Below, piece after piece: positions 3,838-25,735 of a stretch of 30,121 nt of DNA (positions are counted from its first letter, which is position 1; every line of letters begins with the position of its first letter). Origin of the DNA: a virus; IMG/VR virus record IMGVR_UViG_3300027736_000168, positions 1 through 30,121 of that record; one strand, given 5' to 3'. The notes under the pieces were generated by a model, which ran no database searches, was not told the DNA's origin, and saw only the letters and a program-made list of their open reading frames with translations. Made by a program: the position numbers and the translations under genes.

Positions 3838-3863
3838 GAAAAACCCCTGTTGAATCCGCAGGG
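3838..3863 (-). terminator. Intrinsic terminator ending the structured RNA
   Basis: On the minus strand CCCTG, a 9-base loop, CAGGG and then GTTTTT form a classical hairpin plus T-run, only 20 bases before the start codon of the initiator-like gene. The 5' arm shares two C residues with the last pairs of the longer GGTCTCAC/GTGAGACC stem, so the two structures compete at their border, as in attenuators. Confidence 0.75.
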
Positions 3864-3930
3864 TCTCACTTCTGCTTCATTAACAAGGGTTAATAATTTT
3901 TTTTGTTCTATTACGTGAGACCGAACCATA
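3838..3930 (-). ncRNA. Putative structured small RNA or attenuator leader
   Basis: The gap between the DnaA-like and initiator-like genes encodes a compact predicted RNA of about 93 nt. GGTCTCAC (3922-3915) pairs perfectly with GTGAGACC (3869-3862). Inside lies a second perfect hairpin, ATTAAC-CCTT-GTTAAT (about 3893-3878), and the RNA ends in a CCCTG/CAGGG terminator with a T-run. A promoter-like TAAATTTG lies just upstream. It could be a stand-alone regulatory RNA or an attenuator that limits read-through from the early genes into the replication operon. I do not recognise the family. Confidence 0.6.
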
Positions 3931-3933
3931 TCG

Positions 3934-3963
3934 CAAATTTAATAATTAATTTAACATAAACAC
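3934..3963 (-). promoter_or_regulatory. Putative promoter for the structured RNA
   Basis: TAAATTTG (3941-3934 on the minus strand) matches the -7 consensus TAnnTTTG. The -33 element at the same 19-base spacing is GTG instead of TTG, preceded by TTC, so it is weaker than P1 and P2. A start about 4-6 bases downstream would place the 5' end just before the GGTCTCAC arm. Confidence 0.5.
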
Positions 3964-24976: not shown

Positions 24977-25735
24977 TTAAACTCCTTTGATAGGTACATT
25001 AACTTTTTTTGCGTTTAATAAATCAGTCATTTTTTGTGGTGGTATTTTATACTGAATTATTTTTTTTCCCCACTTTAACATAATTTGTTTACAATATTGT
25101 ATTTCTTTTTCTTTACTTCTATAACTAACTATTCCGCCTTTATTGTCTCCGTGTTCACATAAATAATGGAACTTATTTAACCTTAATACTTTTTTATATT
25201 TTTGAAGTTGTTGTAACGCCATATCGTAATCGTCTTTTGTGCCTACTCTACTATCAAATTTTAATTCGTGCTTTAAATGCGCTTGAAAAGGACCTAAAAT
25301 AATATTTGTTAAATTAAATGGCAAAAATTCTTTAAATATTCTATTGTCTTCATTTTGTCCTAATCCCCACATTTTACAATTAAAATCTTCGCATAACTTA
25401 AAATTATGTTTAAAAAAATTAATTAATTCGTGTTTGTCTAATTCTTTATTTTTATGTTCTCCGTCATTTTCGCCTTTTCTATTTTCATAATAATTTATGC
25501 TTTTAACATCATCATCAATCATTATTAAAGGAAATTCTATATTGTTTAAAATCCAATTGCGTTTTTTTACTATGTCTCCGTCTTCGCTATCAGGCAAAGT
25601 AATAACTCTGTCTTTTCCAACTGCTTCAATATATTCTTTTTCTTGACTTTTAGGAACACAATATTTAGCCATAAAAAAATAATCTTTACCTTTTAAATCG
25701 TGGCTTCTTTTGTAACTTGGTATTATTATATTCAT
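24977..25735 (-). CDS. TET-associated-type glycosyltransferase
   Basis: 252 residues. NIIIPSYKRSHDLKGKDYF (2-20) and AKYCVPKSQEKEY (23-35) begin a nucleotide-sugar binding fold; IDDDV (73-77) is the DxD metal site, with TKDDYDM (166-172) and an HxDNKGG-like segment later. This fits the glycosyltransferases first noted next to TET/JBP genes in phages (TAGT), which are thought to glycosylate modified bases in DNA. It overlaps the ParB-like gene by 4 bases and directly precedes terminase, an arrangement typical of this group. No TET oxygenase gene is seen here, so the acceptor is open; a protein or surface acceptor is an alternative. Confidence 0.72.
   Translation of the reverse strand: MNIIIPSYKRSHDLKGKDYFFMAKYCVPKSQEKEYIEAVGKDRVITLPDSEDGDIVKKRNWILNNIEFPLIMIDDDVKSINYYENRKGENDGEHKNKELDKHELINFFKHNFKLCEDFNCKMWGLGQNEDNRIFKEFLPFNLTNIILGPFQAHLKHELKFDSRVGTKDDYDMALQQLQKYKKVLRLNKFHYLCEHGDNKGGIVSYRSKEKEIQYCKQIMLKWGKKIIQYKIPPQKMTDLLNAKKVNVPIKGV

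Follow-up and report, generated by a model that had tools for sequence, protein, structure and literature searches.

The 30,121-base window analyzed here (virus record IMGVR_UViG_3300027736_000168, from a phage of Bacteroidota bacteria) encodes a structured RNA of about 90 nt in which the loop of an upstream hairpin pairs with the loop of a terminator hairpin. We are nearly certain that the RNA structure is real and under selection. The element, including its promoter box, occupies positions 3941-3839 of the minus strand and adjoins the 5′ side of a replication operon whose first gene encodes a DnaD-like helicase loader (3818-3183; phrog_2514, E = 5e-24) and whose second encodes a RecA-like replicative ATPase/helicase (3199-2312; phrog_239, E = 7e-21). 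The upstream neighbor, on the same strand (4332-3967), encodes a DnaA C-terminal-like helix-turn-helix protein (Bac_DnaA_C, E = 6e-5, a match below the Pfam cut-off). A preliminary description of the window had placed at this site, next to the replication genes, a compact structured RNA equipped with a promoter and a terminator and not recognized as a known RNA family. In these respects it is borne out.

Read 5′ to 3′ on the minus strand, the element begins with the promoter-like box TAAATTTG (3941-3934), which was recognized in the preliminary description and which sequence and relatives identify as a -7 box of the sigma-ABfr type (TAnnTTTG); the transcript is predicted to start just 3′ of it. 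The first helix, P1, is formed by GTTC (3926-3923) and GAAC (3908-3905) and shows paired changes in relatives, including a switch from U-A to A-U. Its loop holds the 5′ kissing strand GGTCTCAC (3922-3915) and, between that strand and the P1 3′ arm, the conserved unpaired segment GTAATA (3914-3909; consensus NNNATA). An A/U-rich single-stranded linker, AAAAAAAATTATT (3904-3892), conserved as unpaired and of the AAAGGAATTATT type in relatives, leads to the terminator stem P2, with arms AACCCTTGTT (3891-3882) and AACAGGGGTT (3851-3842). Stacked atop P2 is P3, in which GCAG (3875-3872) pairs with CTGC (3861-3858); the internal loop between the two helices has a conserved GAA before the P3 5′ arm and a conserved GG after the 3′ arm. 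The P3 loop contains the 3′ kissing strand GTGAGACC (3869-3862), which forms 8 bp with the P1 loop to give a loop-loop (kissing) pseudoknot; the other conserved unpaired part is an A plus one base just before this strand. The combined P2 and P3 hairpin has a predicted energy of -17.7 kcal/mol and is followed by the terminator T-run (3843-3839), the predicted 3′ end of the RNA. The distance from P1 to the end of P2 is 84-88 nt in most of 70 RNAs. Alignment of 41 distinct sequences distinguishes two subtypes, set apart by matched changes: P1 is GTAC/GTAC and P3 is GTTG/CAAC in subtype B, as against GTTC/GAAC and GCAG/CTGC in the window.

The kissing strands constitute the sole GC-rich inverted repeat of 8 bp with a spacing of 30-60 nt in the window, where shuffled sequences lead one to expect 0.15. 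The preliminary description had seen this perfect complementarity (3922-3915/3869-3862) correctly and had read it as a nested outer stem; the helix is in fact the P1-P3 loop-loop pseudoknot. Folding of the single sequence, which had been suggested as a check, gave an unremarkable result (z = -1.6) because folding programs cannot form the pseudoknot. The second suggested check, a search for compensatory changes in the 8-bp helix, succeeded, and the helix is conserved among related phages.

Several independent comparisons support the structure. In 19 diverse sequences, double-sided changes were found in 24 of 29 pairs, with a covariation of 0.614 against 0.195 +/- 0.017 after shuffling and less than 0.07 for slid versions of the fold. 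A covariance model (R1) built on the nested helices only, with the kissing helix left out, retrieved seven divergent members with other kissing sequences, and the six that were aligned proved fully complementary. Of 78 further loader loci, about 48 proved to contain the RNA when scanned with a second model (R2); the kissing helix (7-8 bp or more) was present in 43 of 44 full-length matches even though it is absent from the model, and shuffled loops reach a complementarity of at least 7 bp in 0.7% of cases. With 47 sequences the covariation was 0.755 (0.213 shuffled); 93.3% of cells pair (63.9% shuffled), and 378 cells carry double changes (112 shuffled). A sequence-free descriptor gave 63 matches in 734 kb, against 7 in dinucleotide shuffles, and about 54 of the 63 are genuine as judged by promoter box and position. 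Finally, a pattern confined to the 5′ half retrieved 66 contigs, every one of which has a fully paired 3′ strand. In an alignment of 77 rows the kissing helix is 98% paired, P3 is fully formed in 76 rows and P2 is paired in 91% of cells. Wobble pairs identify the RNA strand: T.G and G.T are common and A.C is almost absent, as is allowed on the minus strand only.

The same alignment bears on the finer claims of the preliminary description. Mutual information among the 77 sequences recovers P1, P2, P3 and the kissing helix only; no alternative helix covaries, neither an antiterminator nor a pairing that would let outer stem and terminator switch, as had been proposed. Only 5 of the 77 relatives have the inner hairpin ATTAAC-CCTT-GTTAAT completely paired. 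The T-run ending near 3839 was correctly identified, while the CCCTG/CAGGG stem assigned to it pairs throughout in 9 of 77 relatives, the conserved terminator stem being AACCCTTGTT/AACAGGGGTT. An AAGG-CCTT antiterminator was also considered and rejected because AAGG persists where CCTT is lost, so that the pairing is not maintained.

The TAnnTTTG motif matches the established -7 consensus for sigma-ABfr promoters of Bacteroidota (PMC7366714). In each of the 70 distinct RNAs tabulated it precedes P1 by 2-7 nt (the box was required for that set), and it is present in 64 of the 66 contigs from the largely box-independent 5′-half search, with variation mostly confined to the nn positions. For the -33 TTTG element of such promoters, the upstream region offers a weak, AT-rich consensus; the -33 motif was likewise not identified in F. 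johnsoniae (PMC7366714). By its sequence, the element thus has the -7 box of a putative sigma-ABfr-type promoter. At the other end, it has the GC-containing hairpin (median -17.5 kcal/mol among relatives) and the T-run of an intrinsic terminator, where termination is predicted; the T-run is present in 66 of 66 contigs of the 5′-half set, and in nearly all relatives tabulated T makes up at least 6 of the 8 nt that follow P2.

The covariance model gives a single significant match in the window, indicating one copy of the RNA. In viral contigs that carry a related loader gene, a homologous element lies directly upstream of that gene, and further contigs were recovered by independent pattern search. 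In all, 91 distinct RNAs from viral contigs were collected. Their kissing helices are of 22 different kinds, of which 19 consist of Watson-Crick pairs throughout; this set was selected by complementarity and box and so illustrates range, not significance. One member is carried by the cultured Cellulophaga phage phi18:3 (L233, 2142-2233; model E = 2e-6), a phage of Cellulophaga baltica #18, which was reached via the loader protein, then the sequence-free descriptor and then the covariance model. In KC821620.1 the RNA is predicted at approximately 3170-3079 on the minus strand, with its start expected just 3′ of TACATTTG. A blastn search of INPHARED with a subtype-B RNA returned chance Staphylococcus matches only, and the sole pattern match in bacterial genomes (L153) is a chance match within a recombinase gene. 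The pattern AAGGNATTATTNACCCTTNNNNNNGAA gave no matches, which was unexpected given several near-matching loci; these were missed because the exact spacing to GAA excluded them. One 47-kb contig (IMGVR_UViG_3300044639_000820; L017, L022, L112 and L114) contains two different cassettes of RNA and loader, of subtypes A and B, and may be an assembly artifact that fuses two phages, or else a tandem prophage.

Synteny with the replication operon is strict. In the first set, retrieved by RNA pattern only, a loader gene is downstream at 66 of 70 loci; three contigs end too soon, and the remaining locus (L109) has an HNH gene followed by a gene that appears primase-like by eye. In the second pattern-only set, based on the 5′ half, a loader is downstream in 54 of 66 contigs; 11 of the other 12 have a different loader type (MSKELPFF or MAKDKKG/MAENKKG proteins) together with an ATPase-like gene, and one contig ends. 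Because the loader type varies beneath it, the RNA goes with the replication operon as such, not with any single protein. The next ATG follows P2 by 21-26 nt in 84 of 91 RNAs (typically about 24 nt), whichever gene comes next; in some loci the RNA and the loader are separated by small open reading frames (ORFs) or HNH genes. The start region after the RNA is also conserved, with AAAAATT in 59% of cases versus 2% of other genes in the same loci. From this position and synteny, the RNA likely controls the replication genes, as the preliminary description had proposed.

Several further features of these loci were recorded. Between RNA and loader there is often a recurrent short ORF of some 55-60 residues, such as MEEIILQC... 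(L104, L067, L184 and others). The loader itself is mosaic: in the window gene and in L028 (4734-5315, plus strand) and L020 (5001-5636, plus strand), the N-terminal half is swapped (MKGWIK, MSGWIK or MAEEKKG types), and the C-terminal 100 residues are about 75% identical or more. Elsewhere in the window, a sigma-factor-like phage gene (27111-27650, minus strand; phrog_1740, E = 5e-7) is a candidate late-gene regulator, and a gene matching beta-glucosyl-HMC-alpha-glucosyltransferase (24977-25735, minus strand; phrog_842, E = 9e-16), together with a C-5 cytosine methylase gene (1154-2023), points to possible DNA modification in this phage.

Differently shaped leaders precede other loaders: L162 upstream of 2556, L170 upstream of 2564 and L063 upstream of 3896 (all plus strand). 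In each, a 5′ segment complementary to the terminator-hairpin loop recurs at the next start codon (as an 11-nt copy in L162); L162 is the only one to do better than shuffles (p ~0.006). Such copies suggest possible translation or antisense control. Leaders identified by eye at L170, L063, L210, L182, L213, L216 and L220 were not counted because individually they are no better than shuffled sequences.

These features are consistent with the following mechanism. A host-type (TAnnTTTG) promoter would produce a phage RNA of about 90 nt in which the first hairpin loop would kiss the terminator-hairpin loop, and this RNA would end at the T-run some 20 nt before the first replication gene. Polymerases that pass the terminator would be the sole makers of mRNA for the helicase loader and helicase ATPase, and the RNA would thus throttle (attenuate) replication-gene expression. 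The kissing domain may be the target of some factor, whether polymerase, a host protein, a phage protein, a ligand or another copy of the RNA. Because the start codon lies so close to P2, there is no room for a promoter between it and the T-run, and transcripts entering the loader gene must therefore read through the terminator; for both reasons a self-terminating leader is the most economical reading. We consider such a leader (attenuator), limiting replication-gene expression, to be the best explanation, with roughly even chances of being correct; in it, transcription and termination would take place at the predicted sites, read-through would supply the replication mRNA, and the fold would alter termination. 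The missing covarying antiterminator helix argues against a classical two-state attenuator, and autoregulation by a particular loader is unlikely because the first gene varies. A more specific proposal, which we advance only tentatively and would not expect to hold in most such cases, is that the element typifies a new class of Bacteroidota-phage regulatory RNA, in which an intrinsic terminator incorporates a kissing-loop domain that senses a signal to time replication-gene transcription, whatever the loader. Candidate signals include polymerase state, a host factor, a metabolite or RNA dosage.

The main rival is a stand-alone, trans-acting small RNA that binds a host or phage protein, or a host RNA via the A/U-rich linker; the neighboring genes would then be expressed by leaky termination or from upstream. 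The RNA's own -7 box and terminator, its constant length and its one static fold with no alternative helix all fit this explanation, and the conserved single-stranded linker would suit it equally, which counts against the leader reading. A trans-acting RNA would, however, be expected to move, whereas in the pattern-only searches the element is strictly linked to the head of the replication operon over large sequence divergence and its distance to the next ATG is nearly constant. We consider a trans-acting role possible but rather doubtful.

Considerably less probable is an RNA device for dosage control or immunity on the model of satellite phage P4, in which the terminated RNA would pair through its kissing strands with the nascent leaders of other copies and promote termination, and would thereby limit replication or exclude superinfecting phages that share the loop sequence. 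The RNA is self-complementary through two loops, the loop sequence differs between phages (the 22 types noted above), the 5′ strand of the related leader L162 recurs at the start codon of its loader, and the location on the replication operon is as in P4 (PMC4825925). However, in the main class complementarity of the kissing loop to the start codon region is equal to that of shuffles; target sites of the P4 CI/seqA type, up- and downstream on the same transcript, were not found, L162 alone having a downstream copy; and no integrase or repressor is among the window proteins scanned. Since P1 and P3 are no less variable than the kissing helix, ordinary structural drift suffices to account for the loop variation.

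A DNA element (a replication origin or operator) made of inverted repeats, with the RNA incidental, would agree with the position between the DnaA-like gene and the loader, but the four helices, their crossing topology, wobble pairs of the minus-strand-only kind, and a T-run and promoter box on that same strand make this very improbable. Least credible is a small protein-coding gene: an ATG-started frame of 35 codons runs through the element in the window and, by common descent, in many relatives, yet 20 of 70 distinct RNAs lack any open frame, single-base insertions separate the subtypes and changes track base pairing instead of codons.

No match at the gathering threshold to any of the 4227 families of Rfam 15 was found for the window, 15 diverse members or 8 other loader loci; a permissive Rfam search gave sub-threshold, chance-like matches only, and a literature search found no description of this RNA. 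In terminator-type riboswitches and attenuators, where a ligand or protein changes termination, a structured 5′ leader is coupled to an intrinsic terminator that immediately precedes the gene under control. The leader layout here is the same, but there is no covarying antiterminator, and the kissing helix involves the loop of the very hairpin that forms the terminator. Antitermination RNAs of the put and EAR kind make polymerase resistant to terminators farther along, and put of HK022 is a structured RNA situated at the beginning of a phage early transcript or close to it. To our knowledge, neither put nor the Bacillus EAR antitermination RNAs have a terminator of their own at the end, whereas the RNA here ends in its own terminator and has no Rfam match. 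We know of no described family in which a kissing loop is built into a terminator.

The replication-operon leader of satellite phage P4 (CI RNA, seqA and seqC) and IsrK of Gifsy-1 (PMC4825925) also give rise to a short RNA from a phage promoter near early genes. The element described here has no sequence or Rfam match to these, is encoded once and occurs in phages of another bacterial phylum; its main class lacks a downstream complementary site, only the internal 5′ strand being complementary, and its kissing-loop fold lies within the terminator. Type III toxin-antitoxin RNAs (ToxI, CptI and TenpI; PMC5086642) share the layout of promoter, pseudoknotted RNA, Rho-independent terminator and ORF. 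In those systems, however, the RNA is a tandem array of antitoxin repeats, in contrast to the single copy here, and the genes downstream here encode a DnaD-like loader and an ATPase, not a ToxN/AbiQ-like endoribonuclease toxin.

Our analysis therefore adds a well-supported structured RNA family outside Rfam, in a phage group with very few characterized RNAs. Its architecture is unusual in that the loop of an upstream hairpin holds the loop of the terminator hairpin. The family supplies a consensus, defined compensatory mutants and one cultured host-phage pair (phi18:3); if the proposed role is true, it would show how these phages time replication.
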